64,000 bases of DNA from Bacteroidales bacterium (GTDB taxonomy: Bacteria > Bacteroidota > Bacteroidia > Bacteroidales > SM23-62): contig JADHVS010000002.1 in NCBI GenBank assembly GCA_016783865.1, forward strand, positions 1-64,000. The letters are read 5' to 3'. Numbering within the stretch: the stretch's first letter is position 1; each line of letters begins with the position of its first letter. The notes under the pieces were generated by a model. The model ran no database searches. It was given only the letters and a program-made list of their open reading frames with translations, and was not told where the DNA came from. Positions 1,179 through 28,601 of this stretch are shown one piece after another. The position numbers and the translations under genes were made by a program.

Positions 1179-1616
1179 ATGGAAGATATTTCCTTACATA
1201 TTCTTGATATCGCAGAAAATTCAATAAGAGCAGAAGCAAAAAATATCAGTGTAACGATAACAGAGGACATGAAGAACGACTTACTTACTCTTACGATAGA
1301 AGATGATGGTGAGGGTATGGATATCAAAACAAAAGAGCTTGCTTTAAATCCATTCTTTTCTACTAAAAAGGGTAAAAAAGTTGGTCTCGGCTTAGCTTTT
1401 CTATCTCACTCAGCAGAGGAGGCAGGTGGAGCTATGAAAATTGAAAGCGAACCGGGCAGAGGGACAAAAATAGCAGCTACATTCAGGCTGGGACATATAG
1501 ACAGAAAACCCCTTGGAAATTTGAATGAAACGATCAGATGTTTGAAAGTTACTCATCCGGAAATAAATATAACTTTTGATTATGTTAAAATAGACAATGG
1601 AGGGAGCATATGGTAA
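1179..1616 (+). CDS. Small GHKL ATP-binding protein
   Basis: The 145-residue product is a bare histidine-kinase-type ATPase domain. The N box is LDIAENSIRAEAKNI (residues 8-22), the G1 box is EDDGEGM (about 42-48), and the G2 box is KVGLGLAFLSHSAEEAGG (about 67-84). There is no dimerisation/H-box domain and no sensor, so it is not a complete sensor kinase. Its role may be that of an anti-sigma-type kinase or an ATP-dependent chaperone-like factor. It starts one base after the PHP stop and overlaps the HdrA fusion gene by 7 bases. A second such ATPase is the truncated gene at the start of the window, so the operon has two. Confidence 0.75.
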   Translation: MEDISLHILDIAENSIRAEAKNISVTITEDMKNDLLTLTIEDDGEGMDIKTKELALNPFFSTKKGKKVGLGLAFLSHSAEEAGGAMKIESEPGRGTKIAATFRLGHIDRKPLGNLNETIRCLKVTHPEINITFDYVKIDNGGSIW

Positions 1617-4881: not shown

Positions 4882-5295
4882 ATGATCAATAATTTTGACC
4901 CAATAATTCTATCATTCTGTTGTAACTGGTGTTCCTATGCAGGTGCTGACCTTGCAGGCATTTCAAGATTACAATACCCTACAAATGTTCGCATCATCCG
5001 TGTTATGTGCTCCGGTATGGTTCATCCTAACTTAGTAATTGATGCTTTAACAAAAGGTGCTGACGGTGTTATTATCTGCGGATGTCATATAGGGGATTGT
5101 CATTACCTCGAAGGAAATTTAACAGCACAAAGCAGAGCGGACGCCATTAAACTTATGTTACAGGATTTTGGTATTGAGGAGGAAAGATTCAGACTTGAAT
5201 GGGTATCAGCATCAGAAGGTCCAAGATTTGCCCAAGTAATGAAGGAATTTACAGAAGAGATAAAAAATTTAGGCCCTAGTCCATATAAGGTTTAG
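4882..5295 (+). CDS. mvhD: MvhD-type [2Fe-2S] subunit, cluster 1
   Basis: A 137-residue member of the F420-non-reducing hydrogenase delta subunit family. Cysteines lie in SFCCNWCSYAGADLAG (residues 10-25), VMCSGMVHP (near 42), and GCHIGDCHYLEGN (near 72-84), the pattern known to bind one [2Fe-2S] cluster that links the hydrogenase module to HdrA. It begins 11 bases after the HdrA fusion with a GGAG ribosome-binding site. Family members are soluble and carry electrons from the MvhG clusters to HdrA. The paralogue at 21428 has the same cysteine layout, supporting two parallel hydrogenase-Hdr assemblies. Confidence 0.9.
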   Translation: MINNFDPIILSFCCNWCSYAGADLAGISRLQYPTNVRIIRVMCSGMVHPNLVIDALTKGADGVIICGCHIGDCHYLEGNLTAQSRADAIKLMLQDFGIEEERFRLEWVSASEGPRFAQVMKEFTEEIKNLGPSPYKV

Positions 5296-5418
5296 CCACC
5301 ATTATGAAAATAAATAGAGTTCTTTGCAGAATATGTTATTAAAAAGGTGAAAAAATTAGATATAATGTTATAAAAGATTTATTTTTAACAAAAAAAAAAT
5401 ACGATATAAAACAGACAT

Positions 5419-5613
5419 ATGGATAATGTAAAATTTTTTGACGGAAAAAAGTTTATGTGGGATGGTAAAACTCATGAGAATGGAAATGATGTGCAAAAAA
5501 TGAAAGCTGAGTATGAGACGAACAATTTTGAAACCCAGATAATTCAGGAAGAAGAGAAATATTTTCTATTTACCCGAAGAGTAGTTAGTGAAGTTATTGT
5601 AGAAAAAAATTAA
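5419..5613 (+). CDS. Small conserved-looking protein between mvhD and mvhG
   Basis: This 64-residue ORF opens MDNVKFFDGKKFMWDGK and ends VVSEVIVEKN. It has no cysteine, signal peptide or membrane segment. It is acidic in the middle (NNFETQIIQEEEKYFLF) and looks like a small beta-rich protein. I recognise no family. Reasons to call it real are its place in the operon, its codon use like its neighbours, its end 19 bases before the mvhG start, and the gap of 123 bases to mvhD that it partly fills. The ribosome-binding site is weak. It could be an assembly or regulatory factor for the hydrogenase. Confidence 0.55.
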   Translation: MDNVKFFDGKKFMWDGKTHENGNDVQKMKAEYETNNFETQIIQEEEKYFLFTRRVVSEVIVEKN

Positions 5614-5632
5614 AAGAAAAGGAGGAAAAATT

Positions 5633-6577
5633 ATGGCAGCAAAAATTGCAGAAGAATGGTTAGCAGGTTGCGGTGGATGTGAGGTAACAATACTTGATAT
5701 TGGCGAGCCGCTGCTTGATTTATTACCAAAACTTGAGTTTGTCCATATGCCGGTTTTGGTAGACCATAAATATTTTGGACAGACAGGAGAAAAAGACAAA
5801 TTAGAAATTCCCGACGCTGATGTTGGAATAATCTCAGGTGCAGTGAGGAATGAAGAACATAAAGAGATTGTACATGAGATGAGAAATAAGTGTAAGGTAT
5901 TAATTGCCATTGGTTCTTGTGCTTGCTTCGGTGGAATACCGGCATTGGCAAATCAATTTCAGTTGCAGGAACTATATGACAAAGTTTACAGAGGATCTGT
6001 TTCAACAGACAGCGCCGACACACCAAATCAAGATATTCCACCACTGCTTGACAAAGTATATGCTGTTGACGAAGTTGTAAAGGTTGATGTTTATCTTCCG
6101 GGATGTCCTACAGCCCCGCAGATTGTTGCACAGGCGCTGATTTCACTTCTCGAAGGAAAACCATATGCACTGCCTGAAAGAAGTGTTTGTGATGACTGTC
6201 CTGTAACGCGTGAAAAGAAAGCAATTGTGACTTTAAAGAGACCACTTGAAAGTATGCTTGATTTAGAAAAAGAAGAATTGGTTGGTTCCAGATGCTTTAT
6301 GGAAAAAGGATTTCTGTGTTTAGGCCCGGTCACAAAAACAGGTTGCTATATGACAAGTGGTGATGAACAGCCTCATATTCCGAGATGTGTTAAAGGTCTT
6401 ATGCCCTGCAGAGGTTGCTTTGGACCCATAAGAAAAGATGCAAATCCAATGGTTGATATGATGGGCGCAATCTCATCAATCGGACTAAATGCACGGGAGA
6501 TTCCTGACAGAGCCGCAACATTCAACAGATATGTTGGTGCACAAGGAAGATTAAGACCAATACCAAAGAAAAATTAA
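5633..6577 (+). CDS. mvhG: [NiFe] hydrogenase small subunit MvhG, cluster 1
   Basis: A 314-residue [NiFe] hydrogenase small subunit of the group 3 (Mvh/Vhc-like) type. It has no Tat signal, as expected for a cytoplasmic enzyme. Cluster ligands are visible: AGCGGCEVTILD near residue 11 and GSCACFGGIP near 99 (proximal cluster), PGCPTAP near 158, and Cys-rich C-terminal stretches (CFMEKGFLCLGPVTKTGC, then CVKGLMPCRGCFGP) for the medial and distal clusters. A strong ribosome-binding site (AAAGGAGG) lies 8 bases before the ATG at 5633. It passes electrons from the MvhA active site to MvhD. The large subunit follows after 16 bases. Confidence 0.93.
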   Translation: MAAKIAEEWLAGCGGCEVTILDIGEPLLDLLPKLEFVHMPVLVDHKYFGQTGEKDKLEIPDADVGIISGAVRNEEHKEIVHEMRNKCKVLIAIGSCACFGGIPALANQFQLQELYDKVYRGSVSTDSADTPNQDIPPLLDKVYAVDEVVKVDVYLPGCPTAPQIVAQALISLLEGKPYALPERSVCDDCPVTREKKAIVTLKRPLESMLDLEKEELVGSRCFMEKGFLCLGPVTKTGCYMTSGDEQPHIPRCVKGLMPCRGCFGPIRKDANPMVDMMGAISSIGLNAREIPDRAATFNRYVGAQGRLRPIPKKN

Positions 6578-6593: not shown

Positions 6594-8036
6594 ATGAAAA
6601 AAATAGTTATACATCCGGTAACAAGACTTGAAGGGCATGCAAAAATAACAATATTACTCAATGATGAAGGTAATGTTGAAGATGTGAAATTTCAGCAACT
6701 TGACCTGCGTGGTTTTGAAAAATTCTGTATTGGAAAACCGGTTGAAGAATTGCCAAGGATTGTCACAAGTATCTGCGGTGTATGTCCCTGGTCACATCAT
6801 CTGGCATCCGCAAAAGCAAATGATGCAGTATTTGGGGTTCAAATACCTCCTGCTGCAAAAAAACTCAGAGAACTATGCAATAGCATTGCATATTGTGAAG
6901 AGCATATATTGCATTTTTATTTCCTGGCAGGTGCAGATTTCGTGATGGGACCCGATGCTGATCCATCTGTTAGAAATGTTATTGGAATAGCAGGAAAAGT
7001 CCCTGATATTGCAAAGAAAGTTGTCCGTTCAAGATGGCTCGGTGCGGAAATGCTGGAAATCGTGTCAGGAAAAGCAATACACCCGGTAACTGCTGTACCA
7101 GGCGGTTTCAGTAAACCATTGACTGAAAAAGAAAGAGATACTGCATTGCCTTTGGCAGAAGAGGTTTTGGAATTTGCAAAATTCTCCATTGATTTTGCAA
7201 AGAATAATATTTTCCCGGATTATCTTGATGTGGTTACATCACTTGGTGTAATAAAAACAGGTTTTTTAGGAACAGTCACTGATGATGGAACACTTGAACT
7301 GTATGATGGAAAATTCAGGATGATGGATGCAGAGGGTAAATATGAAGATTTTAAATGTGAGGATTATACTGAATATATTGGGGAACATGTTGAACCCTGG
7401 ACATATATGAAATTTCCATATATGAAGAAAGTTGGCAAACTTTCTATGGATCTGGATAACCCGGTTGGCGTATACAGGACAAATTCACTTGCAAGACTAA
7501 ATGTTTGTGACAAAATCGGAACACCGCTTGCACAGAAAGAATTTACAGAATTCAGAGAGAAATTTGGAAGACCGGTTCAGTTGACTCTTCTTTATCACTG
7601 GGCACGGCTTATTGAATTGCTCTACAATGCAGAATATGCAGTTCAGTTGTTGAAAGACCCGGCGATTCTTTCAAAAGATATAAGAGTGCCGGTAAAACCA
7701 AGAGCAGCAAGAGGAATTGGCAGTGTAGAAGCGCCGAGAGGAACTTTAATCCATGATTATGAAACCGATGCACAGGGATTAGTAACAAATGTAAATATCA
7801 TAGTCGGCACAACTCATAACAATGCACCTATAAATATGTCAGTTAAAAGAGCGGCTGTTGACCTGATAAAAAACGGGAAGTATGACCAGGGGATGATCAA
7901 TAAAATTGAAATGTGTTACAGAGCGTACGATCCTTGTCTTTCCTGTGCAACTCATGATCTTGACGGACGACTTGCGGTTAAGATTGATATTGTAGATAAC
8001 AAAGGCGAATTGCTTGATACACTGAAGAATTTTTAG
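6594..8036 (+). CDS. mvhA: [NiFe] hydrogenase large subunit MvhA, cluster 1
   Basis: The 480-residue catalytic subunit, which splits or forms H2 at a Ni-Fe(CN)2CO site. The four Ni cysteines are present: the L1 motif ICGVCPWSHH near residues 60-69 and the L2 motif DPCLSCATH near 445-453. After the L2 histidine there is a tail of about 27 residues, the usual target of a maturation endopeptidase, and such a protease gene follows at 8113. The ribosome-binding site is AAGGGGG before ATG 6594. Sequence layout fits group 3c (MvhA). A strong hairpin with a T run follows the stop codon. Confidence 0.93.
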   Translation: MKKIVIHPVTRLEGHAKITILLNDEGNVEDVKFQQLDLRGFEKFCIGKPVEELPRIVTSICGVCPWSHHLASAKANDAVFGVQIPPAAKKLRELCNSIAYCEEHILHFYFLAGADFVMGPDADPSVRNVIGIAGKVPDIAKKVVRSRWLGAEMLEIVSGKAIHPVTAVPGGFSKPLTEKERDTALPLAEEVLEFAKFSIDFAKNNIFPDYLDVVTSLGVIKTGFLGTVTDDGTLELYDGKFRMMDAEGKYEDFKCEDYTEYIGEHVEPWTYMKFPYMKKVGKLSMDLDNPVGVYRTNSLARLNVCDKIGTPLAQKEFTEFREKFGRPVQLTLLYHWARLIELLYNAEYAVQLLKDPAILSKDIRVPVKPRAARGIGSVEAPRGTLIHDYETDAQGLVTNVNIIVGTTHNNAPINMSVKRAAVDLIKNGKYDQGMINKIEMCYRAYDPCLSCATHDLDGRLAVKIDIVDNKGELLDTLKNF

Positions 8037-8060: not shown

Positions 8061-8111
8061 AAGCACAGTGTTTAAGTGAAATAATACATTTAACACTGTG
8101 CTTATTTTTTT
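8061..8111 (+). terminator. Intrinsic terminator/attenuator after mvhA
   Basis: A 12-base-pair stem is formed by AAGCACAGTGTT (8061-8072) and AACACTGTGCTT (8092-8103), followed by A and eight T. This is a textbook Rho-independent terminator. It is odd because the T run sits directly in front of the protease start codon (ATG 8113), so any read-through message has the hairpin immediately before its start. It may set a low dose of the protease relative to the structural subunits. Confidence 0.85.
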
Positions 8112-8112
8112 T

Positions 8113-8619
8113 ATGGAGAATATACCTTCTTATTGTAATTGCAAAATTCTTATTTTAGGATGCGGTAATATTTTAATTGGTGATGATGGGTTTGGGCCTT
8201 ACGTCGCTGAAGAACTCCAAAAAAAACATACACTTCCTGAAAATGTAAGTGTCATAAATGCAGGGAGCCAAGTAAGAAATATCCTGTTTGATATTTCTCT
8301 CAGTGAAAAAAAACCAGAAAAAATTATCATCGTTGATGCTATAGATGCCGGAAAAACACCCGGTGAAATAGTTGAACTTCCCATAGATGAAATTCCTGAA
8401 AAGAAGATTGATGATTTCTCTATGCATCAACTTCCAACTTCAAATCTGTTAAAAGAATTGAAAGATTTTTGTAACGTTGATATTGTCATTATTGCTTGTC
8501 AGGTAGAACATATTCCGGAAGAGGTTACTACTTCTATCTCAAAGAAATTAATGGATGCAATACCGGAAGCTTGTAGAAGAATAAATGAGATTATAAATAA
8601 ACAAACTTCAAATGAATAA
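8113..8619 (+). CDS. [NiFe] hydrogenase maturation endopeptidase, cluster 1
   Basis: About 168 residues, HycI/HybD/FrxA superfamily. The N-terminus reads ILILGCGNILIGDDGFGPYV, where Asp/Glu positions of this motif bind the Ni of the immature large subunit; a second acidic ligand site lies in IIIVDAIDAG near residue 77 and a His in SMHQLPTSN near 105. It should remove the C-terminal tail of the MvhA encoded just upstream. I chose ATG 8113 rather than the GTG at 8098, which lies inside the terminator hairpin. It overlaps the next gene by 8 bases. A second, only distantly similar protease (24308) serves cluster 2, so each hydrogenase appears to have its own. Confidence 0.88.
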   Translation: MENIPSYCNCKILILGCGNILIGDDGFGPYVAEELQKKHTLPENVSVINAGSQVRNILFDISLSEKKPEKIIIVDAIDAGKTPGEIVELPIDEIPEKKIDDFSMHQLPTSNLLKELKDFCNVDIVIIACQVEHIPEEVTTSISKKLMDAIPEACRRINEIINKQTSNE

Positions 8620-9022: not shown

Positions 9023-9081
9023 AATATTTATCCATCACTAAGAATGACCTCTGATCATCAATAGTTCGTTGATTTTTTACA

Positions 9082-16663: not shown

Positions 16664-18490
16664 GTGAAAAAAATAATAACTACTCTTATGTTTGAAAATA
16701 AAAAAACAGCTATTTATTTCCACTGGCCTGAAAACCGGAATGGAAATGGTCTGGATTATTCAGACATATCTGCCTATGCCGGAAAGATGCAGGGAGTGTC
16801 AGTCATTTGGAATTCTTCGGATATTCCGTTAAATGACATTCAGGGCTTCTCAGAGAAAATCCGTGCAAAGGAGATCAAGCGCCTCATCCTGGCGGGCGAT
16901 CAACCTGGCCTTTACAAGAATTTCTTCACAAAGGCCATGGTGATGGCCAGTAATGATCCCGCTGATGTCAAACTATGCAGCTTCAACGAGATCAATGCCA
17001 CAAAACGTGAAGACACGGAACTCGCCAAGGCTTTGCTTGCCGCAGTTGCCCATGATATCGATTTCGAAAAGGCCCTACCCGCGCCTGAATACTCCGTTAA
17101 CCCCGATACCCTTGTGATCGGCGGCGGGATTGCAGGTATACAGGCATCGCTCGAGATCGCCGACAGTGGCAACAAGGTGTTCCTTCTCGAGAAGACCGGC
17201 ACCATCGGAGGCCACATGGCGACCTTCGACAAGACCTTCCCCACCTTGGATTGTGCGGCTTGTATCCTCACCCCTAAGATGGTGGAAATAGGCCAGCATG
17301 ACGATATAAATCTGCTTACATACTGCGAGGTACTCTCTGTATCTGGGGTTCCCGGGGACTACCACGTGAAGATACTTAAAAAAGCCCGCCGCGTGGACCT
17401 GGCGACATGTATCGGTTGCGGCAACTGCACCGCAAAGTGCCCCTCCGTAATTGAAAGCGAATTCGATTACGGCACCACAACCCGCAAAGCCATATACATA
17501 CCATTCCCACAGGCGGTCCCCAACAAGTATCTCATCGATGCAGAACATTGCAGATGGGTGCAGGAAAAGAAATGCGGTGTTTGCGTCAAAGCATGCCCCG
17601 TTGTCAATTGCATCAACCTCGATGAAAAGGACACTGAAATAGAGATTAAAGTTGGAAATATCATCGTCGCTGCCGGTTTCCGGGCCTTTGATGCCAAGAA
17701 GATCGAAGTCTTCGGTTACGGTAAGTATCCCAATGTGCTTACCAGCCTTGAGTTTGAAAGGCTCGTCAATGCTTCTGGCCCAACCGGCGGCAAGATCAAG
17801 TTACGCAGCCAGGATAAAAAAGGTAGGTGGGGTTTTTCACCCGACAGCGAAGAACCAAAGAGCATTGCACTCATCCATTGTATAGGCAGCCGTGATATTC
17901 ATTACAACAAATACTGCTCACGCGTTTGCTGCATGTATTCCTTAAAACTCGCGCATCTGGTGCATGAAAAACTGCCCAACGCTTCTGTTTACGAGTACTA
18001 TATCGATATGCGGGCCTTCGGCAAAGGTTATGAAGAGTTCTACAAGCGCATTCAGCACGAAGGGGTTCAGATTATACGCGGAAGGACCGCAAAGATCGAA
18101 GAGAAGAACGGCAAACTGCTGCTTCGCACTGAAGATATCTTACGCGACGACCTCATCGAACAGGAAGTCGACATGGCGATCTTAGCCGTCGGAATGGAAG
18201 CCCACGAAGATACCAAAAAACTCAGCGAAATGCTCGGTTTGAAAGTGTCGGACGAAGGCTGGCTGGTGGAGAGAAACAGCAACAGCGACCCGGTGGGTAC
18301 ATTTACCGCCGGTATTTGCATCGCGGGTGCCTGTCAGGGGCCAAAAGATATCCCTGACACCGTGGCACAGGCTTCTGCCGCTGCCGCGAAGGTGATCCAA
18401 AGCATTATAAAGGGCAAAATCAGCGCTTTCGACAAAAAGGTCAATATTGCTCAGGTAGAAGCAAATATCAAAGAACTTTCAACTTTATAA
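16664..18490 (+). CDS. HdrA-like flavoprotein 1 (QmoA-like), cluster 2
   Basis: A 608-residue HdrA homologue. The N-terminal 140 residues resemble the usual N-terminal domain but lack its CxCG cysteines. The FAD Rossmann motif VIGGGIAGIQASLEIAD lies near 148; a central ferredoxin insert follows, CIGCGNCTAKCP near 248 and CGVCVKACP near 303; then CIGSRD near 406, CSRVCC, the HdrA marker YIDMRAFGKGYEEFY, and GPKDIPDTVAQA. It has no C-terminal ferredoxin domain. The start is GTG 16664; ATG 16688 is an alternative in the same frame, as no clear ribosome-binding site decides. It begins the QmoC-like/HdrA/Mvh operon and likely holds FAD at a branch point between Mvh and the membrane subunit. Confidence 0.87.
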   Translation: MKKIITTLMFENKKTAIYFHWPENRNGNGLDYSDISAYAGKMQGVSVIWNSSDIPLNDIQGFSEKIRAKEIKRLILAGDQPGLYKNFFTKAMVMASNDPADVKLCSFNEINATKREDTELAKALLAAVAHDIDFEKALPAPEYSVNPDTLVIGGGIAGIQASLEIADSGNKVFLLEKTGTIGGHMATFDKTFPTLDCAACILTPKMVEIGQHDDINLLTYCEVLSVSGVPGDYHVKILKKARRVDLATCIGCGNCTAKCPSVIESEFDYGTTTRKAIYIPFPQAVPNKYLIDAEHCRWVQEKKCGVCVKACPVVNCINLDEKDTEIEIKVGNIIVAAGFRAFDAKKIEVFGYGKYPNVLTSLEFERLVNASGPTGGKIKLRSQDKKGRWGFSPDSEEPKSIALIHCIGSRDIHYNKYCSRVCCMYSLKLAHLVHEKLPNASVYEYYIDMRAFGKGYEEFYKRIQHEGVQIIRGRTAKIEEKNGKLLLRTEDILRDDLIEQEVDMAILAVGMEAHEDTKKLSEMLGLKVSDEGWLVERNSNSDPVGTFTAGICIAGACQGPKDIPDTVAQASAAAAKVIQSIIKGKISAFDKKVNIAQVEANIKELSTL

Positions 18491-18493
18491 TTT

Positions 18494-18498
18494 GGAGG
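18494..18498 (+). promoter_or_regulatory. Ribosome-binding site fixing the QmoC-like start
   Basis: GGAGG lies 8 bases before ATG 18507. It shows that the upstream in-frame TTG at 18492, which overlaps this site, is not the start. Confidence 0.7.
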
Positions 18499-18506
18499 AT
18501 AATCAA

Positions 18507-19658
18507 ATGAAAGAACGTATAGAACCCGGTTTAATCAATGACCTGAAAACTTACGGAGTGGATGTAGGGAACTGGAACGACTGCTTCCATTGCGGCAATT
18601 GCACCGCCCTCTGTCCGCTCACCGAAAAAGGGGTGTTGTTTCCCCGTAAACAAATAAGGCTGTTGCAAATCGGCCTGGAAAAGGACCTTACTTCCTCCAT
18701 TGAACCGTGGATGTGCTATTACTGCGGCGACTGCAGCAAGAGCTGCCCGAGGGATGCGAACCCCGGCGAACTCATGATGTCGCTCAGAAGGTGGCTCACT
18801 ACCGTTTACGACTGGACAGGGATAAGCAAACTGATCTATAAATCAAAAGCCCTCGAAATTGCCGCTATCATTGGAATTGCCATTGTAGTCGGTATTTTAT
18901 ATATCAGGTTCACGGCAAATCCTTTTATTAATACCCAGCAATACGTTGTAGACGGAAAAGTGATGATCAACGATCTTGCGCCGGCTTGGAAAATCCACAT
19001 CGGCGACTGGATTATGGCGGGTATGCTCGCATTCCTGCTGATCACCAATTTATTCAATATGTGGTACAAGGTCATTCTAAGAAACAAAGAACTAAAAGTG
19101 CCATTTTTCTTGTATTTCACAAGCGCTTTTTCCCTGGCATGGCATTTCATGACGCAAAGCCGGTTCAAGAAATGCGATAGTGATTCCCGCTTCTATTGGT
19201 TCATCCACCTCTTCCTTATGCTGAGTTATGTCATGCTCTTTACCATGATCGTATTTTTCCTTGAATGGTTCCAGACAAATGAAGTTCATGATTGGTGGCA
19301 TCCGCAACGTTTACTCGGTTATATCGCAACCATCGGGTTGTTCACCGGGATTATTTACTTCACCATAAAGCGCAGGAAAAAATCAAGGGAAGGCAGCAAA
19401 TATTCACATTATACCGACTGGACATTTCTTGTTTTACTTTTCTTGACAACGATAACAGGAATTCTTCTTCACTTCTTCAGAGTGACCGGAATGCCGGTGG
19501 CCACCTGGTTTACATACCTCATACACCTTATGGTATTAGTACCCATGCTTACCATCGAAGTGCCATTCTCAAAGTGGTCACATCTGGCTTACAGGCCTTT
19601 CGCTGTCTATTTTGCAAATGTCATTAAAGCGGCCAAAAAACGCCGTAGTAAAGTGTAA
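18507..19658 (+). CDS. QmoC-like HdrC/cytochrome b fusion, membrane subunit of cluster 2
   Basis: A 383-residue fusion of an HdrC-type iron-sulfur domain and a membrane domain. Two [4Fe-4S] motifs, CFHCGNCTALCP near residue 26 and CYYCGDCSKSCP near 70, are followed by about six or seven membrane helices (near 115-134, 168-187, 200-215, 228-252, 269-288, 305-324 and 333-350). Histidines inside helices (FIHLFL, GILLHFF, YLIHLM) are candidate haem b ligands. QmoC and HdrE/DsrM-type subunits have this plan and exchange electrons with menaquinone. The gene sits between two hdrA genes. No HdrB-type CCG domain is present, so a quinone rather than a disulfide is the likely partner. Confidence 0.88.
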   Translation: MKERIEPGLINDLKTYGVDVGNWNDCFHCGNCTALCPLTEKGVLFPRKQIRLLQIGLEKDLTSSIEPWMCYYCGDCSKSCPRDANPGELMMSLRRWLTTVYDWTGISKLIYKSKALEIAAIIGIAIVVGILYIRFTANPFINTQQYVVDGKVMINDLAPAWKIHIGDWIMAGMLAFLLITNLFNMWYKVILRNKELKVPFFLYFTSAFSLAWHFMTQSRFKKCDSDSRFYWFIHLFLMLSYVMLFTMIVFFLEWFQTNEVHDWWHPQRLLGYIATIGLFTGIIYFTIKRRKKSREGSKYSHYTDWTFLVLLFLTTITGILLHFFRVTGMPVATWFTYLIHLMVLVPMLTIEVPFSKWSHLAYRPFAVYFANVIKAAKKRRSKV

Positions 19659-19678: not shown

Positions 19679-21424
19679 ATGGAAGAGAAAAGAATCGGAG
19701 TATATATTTGCTGGTGTGGCACCAACATCGCCCTCATGGTTGATGTGGAAGCCGTTGCCAAAGAGATATCCAAGTTACCTGATGTGGTTGTAGCAACAGA
19801 TTATAAATATATGTGTTCGGATCCCGGCCAGAACCTGATCATAAAAGATATCAAAGAAAACAATCTCAACCGCATCGTAGTCGCTGCATGCTCGCCGAGA
19901 ATGCATGAGCTTACCTTCAGGAAAGCCTTGCAGAAAGCGGGGATCAATCCATATTACTTTGAAATGTCAAATATCCGTGAACAGGATTCATGGGTGCATG
20001 TTGACAGGAAAGAAGCTACAAAAAAAGCCAAATCACTGGTCGCTGCCGCTGTCAACAGGGTAAGGTTGCATGAAGCGCTTGATTCCCGTTCGGTTGATGT
20101 CAACCCTGCGACGCTGGTTATTGGCGGAGGTATTTCGGGACTTACTGCTGCGTTCGAAATCGCCGATGCCGGCAAGAAAGTGTTCCTCGTTGAAAGAACA
20201 GCAAGAACGGGAGGCCATACGGCAGACATTGACCTGACCTTCCCATACATGAACAGTGCTTCACAGATGCTCGACCCCATCATAGACAGGGTTATGAAAA
20301 ATCCGCATATCGAGGTATTTCTCAATTCCGGGATAAAGGAAGTTTTCGGTTATATCGGGAACTTTGAGGCAATCGTTTATTCAAAAGACAGTAAAGAGAC
20401 GGCTATTAAATTCGGTAACATAATCATGGCAACAGGACTGAAAGCTTTCGATCCATCAGGCATGACAAATTACGGATACGGAAAATTACCGAATGTAATT
20501 ACTTCTTCGGAATTTGAAAAAATGTTAAAAAGCGGTAAGATCATTACCCGTGAAGGCGAAGAGCCCCAGCATGTAGCCATCATTCATTGTGTCGGCAGCA
20601 GAAACAAGAACCAGCATGAATACTGTTCGAGAATTTGCTGTATGACCGCATTAAAATATGCAAACCAGGTCCGGTCGGAATTGCCCAAAGCCAATATATT
20701 CGAGCTGTACGCCGATATGAGGGCATTCGCAAAAGGATGCGAGGAATTTTATACAATATCATCAAGAAGGAACATCAAATTCCTTATGTTCGACCAGGAA
20801 AACGATCTGCCAAAGATCGCAAAAGCCGGCAAGGATGATAAATGTGATATGCTGATCGAAATAAATGAAAAATTGTCGGGAAGGACATTTGATGTTCCTG
20901 CCGACCTCGTTATTTTGATGACGGCGATGGAAGCCCATGAGAATGTGAAGGACATGGCCCATGCGGTCGGGATAAGCATATGCGGCAACCAGTTCTTTAT
21001 CGAAAAGCATCCCAAGCTCGACCCGGTTGCCACCACTACAAATGGAGTTTACATTGTCGGCGGTTGCCAGGCTCCCAAGGATATTCCCGATTCCGTAGTT
21101 CAGGCTAAAGCAGCTGCAGCGAGAATACTCGCCACCATCGCCAAAGGCTCCGTCCAGATGGAAGTTATAACAGCACATGTGAATGAAGAGATTTGCTGCG
21201 GTTGCCAGACATGCCTCAATGTATGCCCTTACACTGCCATCAGTTACGATGCAGAAAAGAAAATATCGGTCGTTAATGAAATCCTCTGCAAGGGTTGCGG
21301 AACCTGCGGGGCAAGCTGTCCCACAGGCGCGATCAGGTGCAGGCATTTTACCGACGAACAGATACTCTCTCAGATTGAAGGTCTGATGCAAATGTCATTA
21401 ATGTTAGAAAAAGAGGAGGTTTAA
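19679..21424 (+). CDS. HdrA-like flavoprotein 2 (QmoB-like), cluster 2
   Basis: A 581-residue HdrA homologue with cofactor content complementary to the first. The N-terminus has the intact CWCGTNI motif (residues 11-17) and ACSPRMHE; the Rossmann motif VIGGGISGLTAAFEIAD lies near 143; CVGSRNK near 305, CSRICC and YADMRAFAKGCEEFY follow. The central ferredoxin insert is missing. The C-terminus has two [4Fe-4S] motifs, CCGCQTCLNVCP near 506 and CKGCGTCGASCP near 538. Known QmoB proteins end in a fused MvhD domain; here MvhD is a separate gene 3 bases downstream. It probably receives electrons from MvhD. Confidence 0.88.
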   Translation: MEEKRIGVYICWCGTNIALMVDVEAVAKEISKLPDVVVATDYKYMCSDPGQNLIIKDIKENNLNRIVVAACSPRMHELTFRKALQKAGINPYYFEMSNIREQDSWVHVDRKEATKKAKSLVAAAVNRVRLHEALDSRSVDVNPATLVIGGGISGLTAAFEIADAGKKVFLVERTARTGGHTADIDLTFPYMNSASQMLDPIIDRVMKNPHIEVFLNSGIKEVFGYIGNFEAIVYSKDSKETAIKFGNIIMATGLKAFDPSGMTNYGYGKLPNVITSSEFEKMLKSGKIITREGEEPQHVAIIHCVGSRNKNQHEYCSRICCMTALKYANQVRSELPKANIFELYADMRAFAKGCEEFYTISSRRNIKFLMFDQENDLPKIAKAGKDDKCDMLIEINEKLSGRTFDVPADLVILMTAMEAHENVKDMAHAVGISICGNQFFIEKHPKLDPVATTTNGVYIVGGCQAPKDIPDSVVQAKAAAARILATIAKGSVQMEVITAHVNEEICCGCQTCLNVCPYTAISYDAEKKISVVNEILCKGCGTCGASCPTGAIRCRHFTDEQILSQIEGLMQMSLMLEKEEV

Positions 21425-21427: not shown

Positions 21428-21856
21428 ATGAGCTACAATCCAACAATTGTTGCGTTTTTATGCAATTGGTGTTCTTACACCGGTGCTGATCTTGCCGGAA
21501 CATCGAGAATGAAATATGCTCAGAATATCCGGGTGGTGAGGGTGATGTGCTCAGGACGAATTGAGCCCACCTTTGTACTTAAATCCTTCAGGGAAGGCGC
21601 CGATGCCGTATTGATCTGCGGTTGCCATCCGGGCGATTGCCACTACCACGAAGGTAATTATAAATGCATGCGCAGATATCATTTATTGCAGAAGTACATC
21701 CAACAAATGGGTATCGAAAAAGACCGGCTGCGCCTGGAATGGGTAAGCGCCAGTGAGGGCAAACAGTTTGCTGAACTGGTCGACTCGATGACTGCCAGGA
21801 TCATCGAACTCGGTCCCAGTAAAATCAAAGAGGTAGTAGAAACATTAGCAATATAA
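21428..21856 (+). CDS. mvhD: MvhD-type [2Fe-2S] subunit, cluster 2
   Basis: A 142-residue paralogue of the 4882 gene. Cysteines are at [15 protein letters not shown] (near 11-25), VMCSGRIEP (near 42) and [15 protein letters not shown] (near 70-84). A strong GAGGAGG ribosome-binding site overlaps the end of the upstream hdrA. It links the MvhG clusters to HdrA in the known MvhAGD-HdrABC complexes. Here the partner is likely the second HdrA, whose stop codon is only 3 bases away. Confidence 0.92.
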
Positions 21857-21862: not shown

Positions 21863-22846
21863 ATGAAAGAAGAGACTTCGACCAAACCGAAACTAAAGTT
21901 AGCCATTTACTGGGGAGCTGCCTGCGGCGGATGCTGTGTTTCGGTGCTGGATGTCCATGAAAAACTCCTGGATGTCATTGCAGTAGCTGATCTCGTTTTC
22001 TGGCCCATTGCCCTGGATACGAAGTACAAAGATGTCGAGGCGTGGCCGGATAAGTACATAGATGTCACCCTGTTTAACGGGGCTGTGAGAAACAGTGAAA
22101 ATGAACATCTTGCGAAACTCCTGAGAAAAAAATCAAAAGTACTCGTCGCCTATGGCTCCTGCGCACACATGGGAGGGATCCCGGGACTGGCAAACTTTAC
22201 GACCAAAGAGGCCATTTTTAAACGGATTTATGAAGACAGTGAATCCACGGTGAACCCGGAAAAGATCCACCCGCAGCCTCACTATGAAGTGAAAGAGGGA
22301 ATCCTGGAAATCCCGGTCTTTTACAACGACGTCAGAAGTCTCGGGCAGGTAGTGGATGTCGACTATTTTCTGCCGGGTTGCCCGCCACAGACAGAACGGT
22401 TGCTGGAGGTATTTATGGCCATTGTATCCGGCGCCCAGTTACCTCCGAAAGGATCGGTGGTCGGCGCTTCGGAAAAAACGCAGTGTGATGAGTGCAAACG
22501 CACGAAAACCGAAAACAAAAAGGTCAAGCGGTTTTTCCGTCCGATTGATATCGTTGACGATGGGGAGACCTGCTTTCTGGAGCAGGGTGTCATCTGCATG
22601 GGACCCGCTACACGGGCCGGGTGTGGTGTCAGGTGTATCGTCGGGAATGCTCCATGCCGGGGTTGCTACGGCCCTCCTGAAGGAGTTTCCGATCCCGGCG
22701 CCAAGATGCTCTCGGCAATAGCCACGATGATCGACTCCAATAATGACGACGAGATCGAAAAAGTGGTCGAGAATATCGATGACCCTGCCGGTACATTCTA
22801 CCGTTTTAGTTTACCTGCATCAATATTAAGGAGGACAATCGTATGA
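21863..22846 (+). CDS. mvhG: [NiFe] hydrogenase small subunit MvhG, cluster 2
   Basis: The 327-residue small subunit. Cluster ligands are AACGGCCVSVLD near residue 20, GSCAHMGGIPG near 96, PGCPPQTERLL near 173, and the C-terminal CFLEQGVICMGPATRAGC and NAPCRGCYGPP. There is no Tat signal. The stop overlaps the large-subunit start by 4 bases (ATGA). It is clearly diverged from the cluster 1 small subunit and is richer in G+C at third positions, so the clusters are old paralogues or have separate origins rather than a recent duplication. Confidence 0.93.
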   Translation: MKEETSTKPKLKLAIYWGAACGGCCVSVLDVHEKLLDVIAVADLVFWPIALDTKYKDVEAWPDKYIDVTLFNGAVRNSENEHLAKLLRKKSKVLVAYGSCAHMGGIPGLANFTTKEAIFKRIYEDSESTVNPEKIHPQPHYEVKEGILEIPVFYNDVRSLGQVVDVDYFLPGCPPQTERLLEVFMAIVSGAQLPPKGSVVGASEKTQCDECKRTKTENKKVKRFFRPIDIVDDGETCFLEQGVICMGPATRAGCGVRCIVGNAPCRGCYGPPEGVSDPGAKMLSAIATMIDSNNDDEIEKVVENIDDPAGTFYRFSLPASILRRTIV

Positions 22847-24306
22847 GACGTATTACAATTGACCCGATAACCAGACTCGAAGGCCATGGGAAGATTGAGA
22901 TCTTTCTGAATGATGACGGAGGGGTGGAGAATGTTTACTTCCAGGTCCCCGAATTACGGGGTTTCGAACAGTTCTGCGTAGGACGCCCGGTGGAGGAGTT
23001 ATCCCAGATCGTCACCAAGATCTGTGGTGTATGCCCCGGCTGTCACCATATGGCCAGCGGAAAAGCGGCAGATGCAGTATATGGGGTTGAACCGCCCCCA
23101 ACAGCCAGAAAACTCCGGGAGCTTTTTTATATGGCTCATTTCATGCATAGCCATATTGCCCACTTTTATGCCCTGGCTGCACCCGACTTCGTAGTTGGTC
23201 CCACTGCCGATCCATCCGTGAGGAACATCATCGGCGTGATTGAAAAGGTTGGAATCCCAATTGGAAGTGAGGTGATTAAGCAACGCCGTATCGCCCAGGA
23301 GATCCAGGCTCTGATTGGTGGACATCAGACCCATGTAGTGATGAATCTGCCCGGAGGCGTTAGAAAAGGAATTACATGTGAACAACGTGACGACATAGTT
23401 AATAAGGCTGAAGGGTTTGTCGATTTCGCCAAGTTCAGCATGAACCTCTTCAAAGATGTTGTCCTTGGAAATAAAACATATGTGGATATTATCCTGAACG
23501 GCCCGTATGCACTGAAGATCCACTCGATGGGACTAGTTGACAAACAAAACCATGTCAATTTTTACGATGGAAAGGTGCGGGTAGTAGATACCAATGGAAA
23601 AGAGCTCTTCAAATACGGACCCAATGAATACCTGAACTATGTGGCAGAACATGTCGAACCCTGGAGTTATCTCAAATTTCCGTACCTCAAAACCATTGGC
23701 TGGAAAGGATTCGTGGAGGGGCAGGAGTCAGGCGTCTACCACGCTACTCCGCTTTCGCGCCTCAACGCAGCGGACGGGATGGCCACTCCGATCGCCCAGG
23801 AAGAGTACGAATTCATGTACAAGACCTTGGGGGGCAAACCGGTCCATAACACGCTGGCGATGCACTGGGCCCGGCTGGTTGAATTGATCTACTCTGCCGA
23901 ACACTGCCTGGAACTGGCTCAGGATCCTGAGATTGTCGGAACGAAACTGCGAGCCCCGCTCGACAAAGTCCCGTCGGAAGGAGTCGGCATCGTGGAAGCT
24001 CAACGGGGAACGCTAACTCACCATTACTGGACCGACGAGAAGGGGATCGTAACCAAGGTCAACATCATCGTCGGAACCACCAACAATAACGCCCCTATCT
24101 GCATGTCGATCAAAAAAGCAGCGGAAGGACTGATAACCAAGGATGCCGAGATAACGGAAGGGACCCTGAACATGATCGAGATGGCGTTCCGGGCTTATGA
24201 TCCCTGCTTCTCCTGTGCTACCCATTCCCTGCCCGGACAGATGAGGATGGAACTGGTGATTAAAGATACTGATGGAAAAACAATCCGAACGGTCAAAAGA
24301 TCCTAG
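22843..24306 (+). CDS. mvhA: [NiFe] hydrogenase large subunit MvhA, cluster 2
   Basis: The 487-residue catalytic subunit. Ni ligands are ICGVCPGCHH near residue 60 and DPCFSCATH near 452, with a tail of about 27 residues after the histidine for maturation cleavage. The ribosome-binding site is AAGGAGG before the ATG, overlapping the small-subunit stop. Group 3c features match the cluster 1 subunit (for example the HVEPWSYLKFPYLK region corresponds to HVEPWTYMKFPYMK). The protease gene follows after one base. Confidence 0.93.
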   Translation: MRRITIDPITRLEGHGKIEIFLNDDGGVENVYFQVPELRGFEQFCVGRPVEELSQIVTKICGVCPGCHHMASGKAADAVYGVEPPPTARKLRELFYMAHFMHSHIAHFYALAAPDFVVGPTADPSVRNIIGVIEKVGIPIGSEVIKQRRIAQEIQALIGGHQTHVVMNLPGGVRKGITCEQRDDIVNKAEGFVDFAKFSMNLFKDVVLGNKTYVDIILNGPYALKIHSMGLVDKQNHVNFYDGKVRVVDTNGKELFKYGPNEYLNYVAEHVEPWSYLKFPYLKTIGWKGFVEGQESGVYHATPLSRLNAADGMATPIAQEEYEFMYKTLGGKPVHNTLAMHWARLVELIYSAEHCLELAQDPEIVGTKLRAPLDKVPSEGVGIVEAQRGTLTHHYWTDEKGIVTKVNIIVGTTNNNAPICMSIKKAAEGLITKDAEITEGTLNMIEMAFRAYDPCFSCATHSLPGQMRMELVIKDTDGKTIRTVKRS

Positions 24307-24307
24307 G

Positions 24308-24796
24308 ATGCCGTTGAACAAAACTGTTTTGGTCCTGGGTATAGGCAACGACATTCTTACAGATGATGGGATCGGACCACGGATTGTTCGGCAATTAGAG
24401 AAGGACACTCCTCCTTCTCTTTTTGCTTTTCAAACAGCCACAGTGGGAGGATTGGAGATCCTGGAGATGATCACAGGGTACCGGGAGGTGCTCTTCATCG
24501 ATGCCATCAAGACGCGGGATGGCATACCGGGCACCATTTATTACCTTACTCCTGAGAGTTTCAAAGAGACCCTTCACCTGACCAACCTCCACGATATCAA
24601 CTTCCTCAATGCCCTGAAACTGGGTGAAAAGCTACACATGGAGATGCCTGAGCAAATCCGGATCATCGCGATCGAGATCGTCGAAGATCTGGAGTTTAGT
24701 GAACACTTCAGTCCGCAGATCCGGGAGAAATACCCGGAGATCCTGGCCGAGGTCAGGGGCTACCTCCAACGCCTCATAAAGGGAGCTTGTTGCTAG
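24308..24796 (+). CDS. [NiFe] hydrogenase maturation endopeptidase, cluster 2
   Basis: About 162 residues, HycI/HyaD superfamily. The metal-sensing motif is VLGIGNDILTDDGIGPRIV (N-terminal), followed by LFIDAIKTRDG with the second acidic ligand near residue 60, and HLTNLHDINFL with candidate His ligands near 93-97. I chose ATG 24308, one base after the mvhA stop; the longer reading from 24272 would overlap the large subunit. It should process the MvhA of cluster 2. It ends at the start of a short-repeat region and closes the operon. Confidence 0.88.
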   Translation: MPLNKTVLVLGIGNDILTDDGIGPRIVRQLEKDTPPSLFAFQTATVGGLEILEMITGYREVLFIDAIKTRDGIPGTIYYLTPESFKETLHLTNLHDINFLNALKLGEKLHMEMPEQIRIIAIEIVEDLEFSEHFSPQIREKYPEILAEVRGYLQRLIKGACC

Positions 24797-25117: not shown

Positions 25118-25585
25118 ATGACAGCAAACGAACATCTGATCAGGGATTTAGTGGATAAATACGGCAGAAGCCGGACGGCGTTGATACCGATTCTGCAAGG
25201 GGTTGTTGAGGTAAAAAACTTCATTTCAGACTCCGATATGACCGAGATTGCCAAAGAGCTGGATCTTTCAGCTGCCCAGGTATATGGAACGGCTACATTT
25301 TACTCGTTCCTTTCTACCAAACCACTAGGCAAGTATGTGATTCGTGTCTGCAAAACCATCACCTGCGACATGCATGGTAAAAAACAGATCGTACAAACGA
25401 TCGAAGAGATGTTAAAGGTGAAGGCCGGAGAGACCACCCCCAATAAAAAGTTTTCCCTGCTGGAGACCAACTGTCTCGGCTGGTGCCATGAAGGTCCGGC
25501 TATGCTGATCAACGAGAAACCTTATACAGGTCTCACCCCGGAGCGGGTTCACGACATCATCAGCGAGTACATCAATCAGTCATAA
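25118..25585 (+). CDS. hydC: HydC/NuoE-like [2Fe-2S] subunit of trimeric [FeFe] hydrogenase
   Basis: A 155-residue thioredoxin-like [2Fe-2S] protein of the NuoE family. Ligands are CKTITC near residues 78-83 and CLGWC near 118-122; the N-terminal helical domain has the usual LIPILQGVVEVKNFIS. It is the first gene of an operon with a NuoF-like and an [FeFe] hydrogenase gene, the HydABC/Hnd arrangement. In known enzymes it mediates electron flow within the NADH module. The start ATG lacks a Shine-Dalgarno sequence, as is common in Bacteroidetes, whereas the next gene has one. Confidence 0.92.
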   Translation: MTANEHLIRDLVDKYGRSRTALIPILQGVVEVKNFISDSDMTEIAKELDLSAAQVYGTATFYSFLSTKPLGKYVIRVCKTITCDMHGKKQIVQTIEEMLKVKAGETTPNKKFSLLETNCLGWCHEGPAMLINEKPYTGLTPERVHDIISEYINQS

Positions 25586-26774: not shown

Positions 26775-26807
26775 TCAGGTATGAACCTGAAAATACTGAA
26801 ATCAGAT

Positions 26808-28601
26808 ATGTCTAAGAAAGTAAATTTAACCATCGACGGAATCCAGGTATCGGTTGACGAAGGCACCACCATCCTGGATGCTGCCAGGAAGCTGAACATT
26901 CATATTCCCACCCTCTGCTACCACGAAGACCTCTGCGTGGCAGGAAACTGCCGGGTGTGTGTAGTGGAAGAGGAGCATTCCAGAATCCTGCCGGCTTCCT
27001 GTGCGCTGCCCGTCGCGGAAGGGATGGTGATCCACACCAATAGTGGAAAAGTTCGTGTTGCCCGCAAACACATTGTGGAACTTCTGTTGTCAGAGCACAA
27101 TGCCGACTGTACAAAATGTTATAAAAACGGGAGTTGCGAATTGCAGTCGCTCGCCTCTCAAATGCTTACAGGAGATCACATGTTTCTCGACCTGGTGCCT
27201 GAAAAGAGGTACAGCATCGACATGTTCAACTCAGCGCTTATCAAGGATGACAGCCGTTGTATCCGTTGTCAGCGTTGCGTCAGGACATGTGAGGAACTGC
27301 AGAGCGTGAGCGCCCTGGGTGTTGCCTATCGCGGTAACAAGATGAAGATTTCTACCTTTTACGAGCACCCACTCTTTGAGGTGGTTTGTACCAACTGCGG
27401 ACAGTGCGTGAACCGTTGTCCGACCGGTGCCCTGATTGAACGGAATTATGTGGATCAGGTGTGGGATGCCATTTACGATCCCACCAAACACGTGGCTGTA
27501 CAAACCGCACCGGCGGTACGTGTCGCGCTGGGTGAAGCCCTTGGAATGCCTCCCGGCAAAATCGTCACCGGAAAGATGGTGACCGCTCTCAAACGGTTAG
27601 GCTTTAACTCTGTCCTCGATACAGACTTTTCGGCAGACCTCACGATCATTGAAGAGGGTCATGAACTCCTGGAAAGACTGAAGCGTGCGCTCGTGGACAA
27701 GGACCCGAAGGTAGCGCTTCCCATGGCCACCTCCTGCTCCCCGGGATGGATCAAATTCCTGGAACACACATTCCCGGAGCTGCTTCCCAACCTCTCAACC
27801 TGCAAATCCCCTCAGCAGATGTTCGGGGCCCTGGTGAAGACCTACTATGCCCAGAAGCGGAAGCTGGATCCGAAGAATATCGTTTCCGTCTCCATCATGC
27901 CCTGCACGGCGAAAAAATTTGAAGCCGATCGCCCGGAGATGCGTTCCAGTGGGTACAAAGATGTGGATTATGTACTCACTACCCGCGAACTGGCTATCAT
28001 GATCACCCAGGCCGGGCTGGAGTTTGATAAGCTGCCGGATGATCATTTCGATAGCATCATGGGAGCTTCTACCGGTGCAGGTGTCATCTTTGGATCGACC
28101 GGTGGTGTGATGGAAGCCGCTTTGCGTACCGTTTATGAAGTGGTAACCGGACGGGAAGTTCCATTTGAGGATCTCAATATCATACCGGTTCGCGGAACCG
28201 AAGGAGATGTCCGTGAAGCCTCCCTTCTGATCACCAAAACCAAACCGGAGTTTAGATTCCTGGAAGGTGTGGAACTGAAATGCGTGGTTGCCAATGGACT
28301 GGCGTATGCCAAGCAGGTGATGCAAAACGTCAAGGAGGGAAAAGCCAACTATCACTTTATCGAGATCATGGCCTGTCCGGGCGGATGTTTGGGCGGTGGT
28401 GGGCAGCCTATTCCCACGAACAAAGAGATCCGCTCCAAACGAAGAGAAGCTATCTACAAAGAAGATATGGGCATGCCCCTTAGAAAATCTCATGAGAATC
28501 CAGATGTTCAGGAGATCTACAAGGAGTTCCTGGTGAAACCACTCGGGCATAAATCCCATGAACTTCTCCACACACACTACACTCCACGCAAGCGATACTA
28601 A
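26808..28601 (+). CDS. hydA: [FeFe] hydrogenase catalytic subunit HydA/HndD
   Basis: About 597 residues. It has a [2Fe-2S] domain (CYHEDLCVAGNCRVC near 37-51), a His-Cys3 [4Fe-4S] domain (HNADCTKCYKNGSC near 94), a double ferredoxin (CIRCQRCVRTC near 148 and CTNCGQCVNRCP near 196), and the H-cluster motifs TSCSPGW near 308, MPCTAKKFE near 364 and MACPGGCLGGGGQP near 521. The C-terminal small-subunit-like tail is present. The first motif has Ser where many enzymes have a second Cys; a Cys appears in LSTCKSPQQMFG instead. I chose ATG 26808 (MSKKVNLTIDG); ATG 26781 is 9 codons upstream. H-cluster maturases (hydEFG) are not in the window. Confidence 0.92.
   Translation: MSKKVNLTIDGIQVSVDEGTTILDAARKLNIHIPTLCYHEDLCVAGNCRVCVVEEEHSRILPASCALPVAEGMVIHTNSGKVRVARKHIVELLLSEHNADCTKCYKNGSCELQSLASQMLTGDHMFLDLVPEKRYSIDMFNSALIKDDSRCIRCQRCVRTCEELQSVSALGVAYRGNKMKISTFYEHPLFEVVCTNCGQCVNRCPTGALIERNYVDQVWDAIYDPTKHVAVQTAPAVRVALGEALGMPPGKIVTGKMVTALKRLGFNSVLDTDFSADLTIIEEGHELLERLKRALVDKDPKVALPMATSCSPGWIKFLEHTFPELLPNLSTCKSPQQMFGALVKTYYAQKRKLDPKNIVSVSIMPCTAKKFEADRPEMRSSGYKDVDYVLTTRELAIMITQAGLEFDKLPDDHFDSIMGASTGAGVIFGSTGGVMEAALRTVYEVVTGREVPFEDLNIIPVRGTEGDVREASLLITKTKPEFRFLEGVELKCVVANGLAYAKQVMQNVKEGKANYHFIEIMACPGGCLGGGGQPIPTNKEIRSKRREAIYKEDMGMPLRKSHENPDVQEIYKEFLVKPLGHKSHELLHTHYTPRKRY

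Follow-up and report, generated by a model that had tools for sequence, protein, structure and literature searches.

Two group 3c hydrogenases, probably docked on HdrA flavoproteins with outlets other than HdrB, and an [FeFe] hydrogenase within 27 kb of a Bacteroidales contig

Introduction

The first 64,000 nucleotides of contig JADHVS010000002.1 from a Bacteroidales bacterium (GCA_016783865.1; this whole stretch is hereafter the window) raise the question of where Mvh-type hydrogenases send their electrons if the CCG-domain subunit HdrB is not encoded with them. MvhD-MvhG-MvhA is encoded twice between positions 1610 and 28601, both times together with a maturation protease and HdrA-type proteins, and a NuoE-NuoF-HydA unit follows (Table 1), i.e. 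two group 3c [NiFe] hydrogenases and one [FeFe] hydrogenase packed into 27 kb, as recovered by open reading frame (ORF) and family searches. The original prediction of two complete mvhD-mvhG-mvhA sets with their own proteases and HdrA flavoproteins, plus hydCBA, is thereby borne out by ORFs, family matches and motifs alike. The matches to FlpD, NiFeSe_Hases and Fe_hyd_lg_C are far above chance in strength. Both MvhA1 and MvhA2 retain intact the L1 (ICGxCxxxH) and L2 (AYDPCxxCATH) motifs that define group 3c (PMC6085437), both operons encode the MvhG and MvhD subunits, and 12 cysteines are common to MvhG1, MvhG2 and the MvhG of a canonical cluster.

We consider it rather probable that both are soluble group 3c hydrogenases docked via MvhD on HdrA flavoproteins, with a high-potential outlet other than HdrB: a Qmo-Mvh set in the downstream cluster (cluster 2) and a Bam-type hub in the upstream one (cluster 1). 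The basis is one of sequence: the genes and domains present, an HdrA that is divided in relatives, conserved ligands and, at the window edge, a gene order shared with G163, the closest relative found (G, C and L numbers are our handles for genomes, contigs and loci); from it we infer complex formation, direction and bifurcation for both clusters.

Results

No HdrB in the window

Scanned over its full length in all six frames for the CCG motif, the window returned a sole stretch, in the C-terminal ferredoxin of the QmoB-like protein, and no HdrB. When it was queried by tblastn with 15 proteins (8 HdrB or BamD proteins and 7 that are the longest ORFs over PF02754 matches in relatives), two matches reached E < 0.01, and these fall in the HdrC-like domain of QmoC (18.5-18.8 kb). 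A hidden Markov model (HMM) made from the same 15 proteins had no match in the window, the control, itself a training protein, being found at E 2e-103. Motif scan, tblastn and HMM thus agree with the original prediction that the CCG-domain HdrB of HdrABC-MvhADG systems is not encoded here, a statement true of the window only. Matches to PF02754 occur in 5/5 relative genomes, which says little because 12/14 control genomes match too; the best ones in G163 and G303 are BamD-like proteins inside Bam-like operons, that of G163 being the CCG protein of the closest relative. In view of these matches we hold the absence to the window and do not extend it to the genome. Compared to the HdrABC-MvhADG of methanogens, both window clusters share MvhADG and HdrA but lack HdrB and a separate HdrC.

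Cluster 2 as a Qmo-Mvh operon

Cluster 2 (16.1-24.8 kb) unites MvhAGD, two HdrA-like proteins and a QmoC with an HdrC domain. The cluster ligands and putative heme ligands of QmoC are conserved. QmoA and QmoB each keep an intact FAD (flavin adenine dinucleotide) Rossmann motif, along with an intact inserted ferredoxin in the former and intact C-terminal ferredoxins in the latter. Because of this QmoC-type membrane subunit with its conserved ligands, rewiring to the quinone pool, which had been claimed for one of the two clusters, is supported as the best reading, in which cluster 2 would be an H2:menaquinone oxidoreductase; probably, ferredoxin is reduced in the same turnover by bifurcation. 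Electrons from H2 would enter through MvhA-MvhG-MvhD and then the C-terminal ferredoxins of QmoB, be split at the paired QmoA/QmoB flavins, and pass through QmoC to menaquinone; the low-potential acceptor would probably be ferredoxin.

A comparable set is known from methanogenic Archaeoglobi (Ca. Methanoglobus hypatiae and Ca. M. nevadensis), in which MvhAGD is highly expressed together with two HdrA and an HdrC-fused QmoC, the proposal there being that the electrons of H2 are divided between menaquinone and ferredoxin (PMC10945360); Buessecker 2023 is cited for a QmoC/HdrA/Mvh complex in PMC12008871. Cluster 2 shares with the archaeal set the MvhAGD, the two HdrA (one QmoB-like), the QmoC with HdrC and the H2-splitting proposal, whereas the hosts differ, being archaeal methanogens on the one hand and Bacteroidota and Acidobacteriota on the other. 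As for the QmoABC of sulfate reducers, aprAB lies beside the qmo genes in Thermodesulfovibrio (PMC5165239); no AprAB was found among the scanned neighbors of cluster 2 (CRP, Mvh genes, protease, NuoE). Searched by sequence against solved structures, QmoC has no full-length match, only HdrC and general ferredoxin domains, and a Foldseek search gave no match at E <= 0.001. The near relatives named in protein searches with window proteins are mostly Bacteroidota/Bacteroidales metagenome-assembled genomes (MAGs), one being named only 'bacterium', and the search with QmoC also lists an Ignavibacteriales MAG at 69%.

The CRP-like ORF preceding QmoA has no open helix-turn-helix continuation in the three forward frames before that gene, and its 164-aa product would be either a truncated or a sensor-only form. 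The CRP ORFs before the Qmo-Mvh operon in other Bacteroidota measure 234-246 aa stop to stop in 6/7 cases and 380 aa in one. Elsewhere, L108 (G673) holds two Qmo-Mvh sets in tandem with differing gene order, the sequence read stopping inside one of them, and RnfC shares a contig with a Qmo-Mvh operon in G176 (C28) and G303 (C62).

Exchange of outlets among related hydrogenases

We surveyed MvhA2-like proteins in three sets of genomes. Among the 395 genomes in the class of G001, 11 matched at 1e-60, 4 of them MvhA2-like and that of G163 MvhA1-like; among the 198 in the order of G001, 13 matched at 1e-130; and among the 247 in the phylum of G003, which is a Holophagae MAG, 30 matched at 1e-160. 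MvhA matches of about 40% in the class survey were rejected as Mvh clusters, since 8/9 have a small subunit, a HydA-N-like part and NuoF for neighbors, the pattern of HydABCSL/3d types; no NuoF match was seen beside the remaining one (G092). The 17 Bacteroidota MvhA loci read (leaving out the order hits G760 and G667) comprise 13 with QmoC, in 11 genomes, two with HdrCB, one of cluster 1 type and one cut by a contig end, and none of the 13 QmoC loci has HdrB beside MvhA. Cluster 2 is accordingly not unique, being found in 13 of these 17 loci and published for Archaeoglobi. The 30 loci from the phylum of G003 (31 matches, with G423 left out) divide into 9 with HdrB, 8 with NuoF, 7 with QmoC, 1 with HdrB and NuoF, and 5 untyped; these counts are not general frequencies because the sample was picked by likeness to MvhA2.

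On an MvhA tree of 52 rows, the eight labels need 12 changes (Q 4, H 6, N 2) against a shuffled mean of 28.3; two rows, L139 and L141, sit on long branches. MvhA1 forms a separate starred clade with G163 and L007, and the window MvhA2 lies in a starred clade of 17 rows. Inside the latter, the Bacteroidota HdrCBA loci G724 and G665 group with the QmoC locus G786 (starred, 99/97). These two genomes of the same order carry a canonical HdrCBA-MvhDGA, with HdrB ORFs of 295-303 aa, the one in G724 matching PF02754 twice. The nesting of their hydrogenases in the QmoC clade indicates that the group 3c outlet has been exchanged between HdrB and QmoC within this Bacteroidota order.

A third arrangement, with NuoF beside Mvh, is seen in ten loci from the phylum of G003. 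Their HdrA-like protein, about 590 aa long, is NuoG-like at the N-terminus and lacks an FAD Rossmann motif in the HdrA position (9/10 have no motif at all, and a GAGAAG near the C-terminus in L119 is not counted). NuoE is unfused to an HdrA-like FAD part in 9/9 loci where it is visible, and L126 also has a separate HdrA. The ~590-aa protein found with Mvh and NuoE-NuoF in L113, L119, L120, L129, L130, L133, L134 and L135 is possibly a flavin-free HdrA.

Cluster 1 and its resemblance to the Bam electron hub

The window start falls inside the cluster 1 operon, and the sequence is colinear with G163 at this edge. In G163, whose HdrA1, MvhD, MvhG and MvhA are 83-92% identical to those of the window, the whole operon lies on one strand: the 5' part encodes QmoC (436 aa), a fusion of the FAD part of HdrA to NuoE (291 aa), NuoF (622 aa), a DRTGG protein and a CBS/HATPase protein, and the 3' part reads DRTGG-PHP-HATPase-HdrA1-MvhD-MvhG-MvhA-protease, the CBS/HATPase gene thus sitting between two DRTGG genes downstream of NuoF. 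This NuoF is of bifurcating type, with N-terminal 2Fe-2S and C-terminal Fer4 domains. L007 has QmoC, the FAD/NuoE fusion, NuoF, HdrA1, MvhD, MvhG, MvhA and the protease without the regulators of G163, and in L145 (G539), whose contig stops inside NuoF, the end of that gene is accompanied by the regulators and by the same set of genes on the 3' side. BfuB/BfuC-type genes hence accompany cluster 1 in G163 and L007; in our genome that side lies beyond the window start, and by analogy we infer that QmoC, the fusion and NuoF lie upstream here too.

These relatives also qualify the prediction that one cluster is rewired to a NuoEF-type module. That link stands for cluster 1, in the NuoG-like N-terminus of HdrA1 and in the NuoE and NuoF of G163 and L007, but not in the NuoEF of the window, which belong to the [FeFe] hydrogenase. 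We rejected the latter pair (25-27 kb) as serving cluster 1: they form a tight unit with HydA (gaps of 22 and 6 bases), lie 321 bases from cluster 2 and have the short form of NuoF. Nor are they needed, because cluster 1 of G163 and L007 has its own long NuoF. The division into one quinone-linked and one NuoEF-linked cluster is moreover too clean, as cluster 1 of these relatives carries QmoC as well.

HdrA1 is composite: residues 1-180 match NuoG-type proteins, 186-411 match the middle of one HdrA, and 520-754 with 913-1079 match another, this second HdrA having an FAD Rossmann motif at residue 668 and no inserted ferredoxin. Bam-like operons with an aldehyde-ferredoxin-oxidoreductase-type enzyme (L080, L081 and L082) are present in two Bacteroidota genomes, one in G163 (C27) and two in G303 (C70 and C122), the Pfam basis being that of G163 only. 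The G163 operon encodes an aldehyde-ferredoxin-oxidoreductase-family enzyme (BamB-like), a Fer4 protein (BamC-like), Fer4 with a double CCG (BamD-like), a double HdrA (BamE-like), an MvhD-like protein, NuoE, NuoF and a NuoG-like protein, the Bam names being assigned from the description in PMC9304861. Against this set, residues 1-121 of the NuoE fusion cover BamE 10-130 (58%), HdrA1 163-1083 covers BamE 117-1023 (45%) and HdrA1 2-192 is 36% to BamI; the NuoE part of the fusion is 40% to BamG and the cluster 1 NuoF 58% to BamH. The fusion and HdrA1 therefore jointly tile BamE, one HdrA being split across two genes, and by these alignments HdrA1 is a BamE homolog fused to a BamI homolog. The start of the NuoE gene is visible in G163, L007, G467 and G520, and carries the Rossmann and DCxxC motifs in 4/4; their partner HdrA1 has one FAD Rossmann motif near residue 670-690 (a GGGRPG in the NuoG part of the G467 protein was counted as chance). 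In G467 and G520, HdrCB takes the place that QmoC has in G163 and L007, before fusion-NuoF-HdrA1-MvhD and without MvhGA, and G467 has an extra HdrA before them.

Of the parts BamE/F/G/H/I, those like BamE, BamF and BamI are in the window and those like BamG and BamH in the relatives only. Neither a BamB tungsten-type enzyme nor BamC was found among the window ORFs scanned (to 55.3 kb), and the cluster 1 regions of G163, L007 and G539 gave no match to either. Cluster 1 looks like the electron hub of Bam, the class II benzoyl-CoA reductase (PMC9304861), with a hydrogenase replacing the tungsten enzyme. The double HdrA BamE, the MvhD-like BamF and the NuoE/F/G-like BamG/H/I have homologs in cluster 1 and its relatives; unlike Bam, it lacks BamB, BamC and the CCG protein BamD and has the MvhGA hydrogenase instead, its BamI-like part is fused to BamE, its BamE is split with the FAD part fused to NuoE, and QmoC is added. 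HdrA1 (BamI-like and BamE-like) with MvhD and the hydrogenase would act with the upstream FAD/NuoE fusion, the bifurcating-type NuoF and QmoC, and H2, ferredoxin, nicotinamide adenine dinucleotide (NAD) and probably menaquinone would be exchanged through the hub. Most likely, cluster 1 couples H2 to ferredoxin and NAD via a Bam-like double hub whose high-potential outlet is quinone. For Bam itself, HdrA is proposed to be fed by a BfuABC module and the quinone pool to receive the high-potential electron (PMC9304861), and the QmoC beside the hydrogenase version fits that proposal.

A bolder and decidedly tentative suggestion is that cluster 1 is an undescribed H2 transformer on a Bam chassis, with one hydrogenase, two bifurcating sites (the BfuBC flavin mononucleotide and the HdrA flavins) and an HdrA on two polypeptides, trading H2, ferredoxin, NAD and menaquinone and replacing Rnf. 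RnfC is over the cut-off in 5/8 genomes (G001, G145, G176, G303 and G467) and not in G163, G004 and G539, the three with a hydrogenase-bearing cluster 1; with the eight hand-picked and their completeness not established, this is a lead only. At strict thresholds, full-length HdrA1 is found in 1/395 genomes for the class of G163 and 1/7 for its order, in 1/9 for the phylum of G004 and in 3/247 for that of G003; scoring covered 2 candidates per genome in the class and 3 in the phylum of G003. We do not claim rarity, because among the best 120 of 7518 matches a protein search lists relatives of ~1,085 aa with 62-89% identity under names from Bacteroidota, Thermodesulfobacteriota, Aminicenantes, Gemmatimonadota, Terriglobia and Fidelibacterota.

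The MvhD1-MvhG1 gap (5296-5632) is 337 bases, the corresponding gap in G163 being ~1.4 kb. After cluster 1, at 8612-10834, come a DUF4345 membrane protein and an SDR-type protein, and pairs homologous to these two stand beside the Qmo-Mvh operon in L034, L102, L109 and L110.

The [FeFe] hydrogenase

HydA carries TSCSPGW, MPCTAK and EIMACPGGC, the H-cluster motifs of group A, and is by motif an ordinary [FeFe] enzyme. The window NuoF has significant alignment to the 622-aa NuoF type over residues 134-522 of the latter alone, and so lacks the extra clusters that the BfuB of the Bfu bifurcating family has. Enzymes whose BfuB is without extra clusters outside the 51K core are described as non-bifurcating (PMC9304861), and given its short NuoF the window enzyme is probably a plain NADH-linked, non-bifurcating hydrogenase. 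We liken it to the Syntrophomonas wolfei-type NADH-dependent HydABC named in the same paper, since its NuoF is without the parts that mark a bifurcating BfuB, a likeness of domain content. PF02906 is matched in 2/6 relatives (G145 and G001) and was not found in G163, G303, G176 and G004; hence the three-hydrogenase combination is not seen in G163.

Farther along the window are an Eco57I-type restriction-modification methylase (46247-49294) and, in 2/10 downstream ORFs scanned, a Por secretion tail. Together with the names of the near relatives, this tail makes Bacteroidota the most likely origin of the window.

Table 1. Genes of the three hydrogenase loci in the window, with the features by which they were recognized.
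Feature	Position	Strand	Evidence
3' end of CBS/HATPase regulatory gene, cut by window start	3..128	+	C-terminal match to G163 CBS/HATPase protein (PF00571, PF13581)
DRTGG-domain protein, cluster 1 operon	97..453	+	PF07085 E 1e-7; G163 80% identical
PHP-domain protein, cluster 1 operon	434..1177	+	PF02811 E 5e-11; G163 89%
HATPase protein, cluster 1 operon	1179..1616	+	PF02518 E 8e-16; G163 83%
HdrA1, 1086 aa	1610..4870	+	NuoG/BamI-like 1-180; HdrA part lacking FAD Rossmann 186-510; second HdrA 520-1080
MvhD1	4882..5295	+	FlpD PF02662 E 2e-55
MvhG1, small hydrogenase subunit	5633..6577	+	VhuG NF045875 E 2e-65, under its curated cut-off; 12 Cys as in canonical MvhG
MvhA1, [NiFe] large subunit	6594..8036	+	VhuA NF041785 E 3e-141, under its curated cut-off; PF00374 E 1e-32; L1/L2 motifs
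Maturation protease of cluster 1	8098..8619	+	TIGR00072 E 7e-39
CRP-like regulator, sensor domain only	16139..16633	+	PF00027 E 5e-17; 164 aa
QmoA-like HdrA	16664..18490	+	FAD Rossmann, Cys197-type motif, inserted ferredoxin; lacks N-terminal cluster domain and C-terminal ferredoxin
QmoC-like membrane subunit	18492..19658	+	HdrC-type dicluster domain and NarI-like helices
QmoB-like HdrA	19679..21424	+	N-terminal cluster domain, FAD Rossmann, C-terminal ferredoxins; lacks Cys197-type motif
MvhD2	21428..21856	+	FlpD PF02662 E 3e-54
MvhG2	21863..22846	+	PF01058 E 2e-24; 12 Cys as in canonical MvhG
MvhA2	22843..24306	+	NiFeSe_Hases PF00374 E 5e-35; L1/L2 motifs
Maturation protease of cluster 2	24272..24796	+	PF01750 E 5e-9
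NuoE/HydC of [FeFe] hydrogenase	25118..25585	+	PF01257 E 2e-46
NuoF/HydB, 388 aa	25608..26774	+	lacks N-terminal 2Fe-2S and C-terminal ferredoxin parts
HydA, [FeFe] hydrogenase	26781..28601	+	Fe_hyd_lg_C PF02906 E 7e-96; three motifs intact

Discussion

Several observations weigh against our proposal that both group 3c enzymes bifurcate through outlets other than HdrB. HdrB might be supplied in trans, leaving one or both clusters as ordinary HdrABC-MvhADG bifurcating disulfide reductases, given that HdrABC often does not adjoin Mvh, e.g. in Methanothermobacter (PMC6085437), that the five relatives do have CCG proteins (of little weight in view of the controls), and that two genomes of the same order encode HdrCBA-MvhDGA. 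However, the best PF02754 matches of G163 and G303 stand in Bam-like operons with their own HdrA and aldehyde-oxidoreductase-type enzyme (the remaining matches being only partly identified), the 13 Bacteroidota QmoC loci are uniformly without HdrB beside MvhA, and the place of HdrC is already taken by the HdrC-like domain of QmoC, all of which makes supply in trans improbable.

The more serious rival concerns cluster 2, which might be a plain H2:menaquinone oxidoreductase, or run in reverse to yield H2 from menaquinol and ferredoxin, with no net bifurcation from H2 to ferredoxin. Confurcation by the Qmo of sulfate reducers is a proposal only (PMC10553843), and RnfC, over the cut-off in 4/4 Bacteroidota QmoC-type genomes, offers an alternative ferredoxin route; on the other side, the intact flavin motifs and ferredoxins of QmoA and QmoB speak for bifurcation, and we rate this rival as possible but the less probable course. 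Cluster 1, in turn, could be purely NAD-linked, a Mvh version of HydABC whose HdrA part merely conducts electrons to NuoF, as the ten NuoF-Mvh loci with their HdrA-like protein devoid of the FAD motif and their unfused NuoE might suggest. HdrA1, though, retains an HdrA with an FAD Rossmann motif, and in the relatives NuoE bears an FAD domain and a QmoC is present as well; we deem a purely NAD-linked enzyme unlikely and prefer the Bam-type hub.

How far these arrangements are new must be judged against several described systems. Ca. Symbiobacter mobilis likewise has a group 3c Mvh and an HdrA with an NADH-type domain in a genome without HdrB or HdrC, but only one such cluster, and QmoC is not mentioned in the part of that account available (PMC4053972). 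The MvhA2DG-HdrA1 of Desulfobacterium autotrophicum similarly has MvhADG clustered with HdrA, but in a sulfate reducer with selenocysteine proteins, no QmoC being named in that cluster in the available part of PMC2702500. Hdr next to group 3c hydrogenases, with function unknown, is noted for Caldithrix and other bacteria (PMC5317091), and the accessible text of PMC9304861 names no group 3c Mvh-HdrA member. Our literature search, with subscription papers and preprints outside its coverage, found no Bacteroidota description of either cluster and none of cluster 1 in any organism. The claim of novelty for this combination in Bacteroidetes is weakened by the 13 of 17 loci with QmoC, the canonical HdrCBA-MvhDGA of the same order, the Archaeoglobi (PMC10945360) and Ca. 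Symbiobacter (PMC4053972).

The two window clusters suggest one hydrogen engine pluggable into interchangeable outlets. If this is true, the outlet of group 3c would be a plug, with HdrB, quinone (Qmo) and NAD (NuoEF) ends alternating on related hydrogenases. HydDB labels group 3c as heterodisulfide reductase-linked (PMC5037454); were the outlets to alternate in this way, 'group 3c' could therefore not be read as 'heterodisulfide reductase-linked' in these bacteria. In cluster 1, nature would offer the poorly understood Bam hub coupled to a reaction that is simple and can be assayed, that of H2, rather than to the reduction of benzoyl-CoA.

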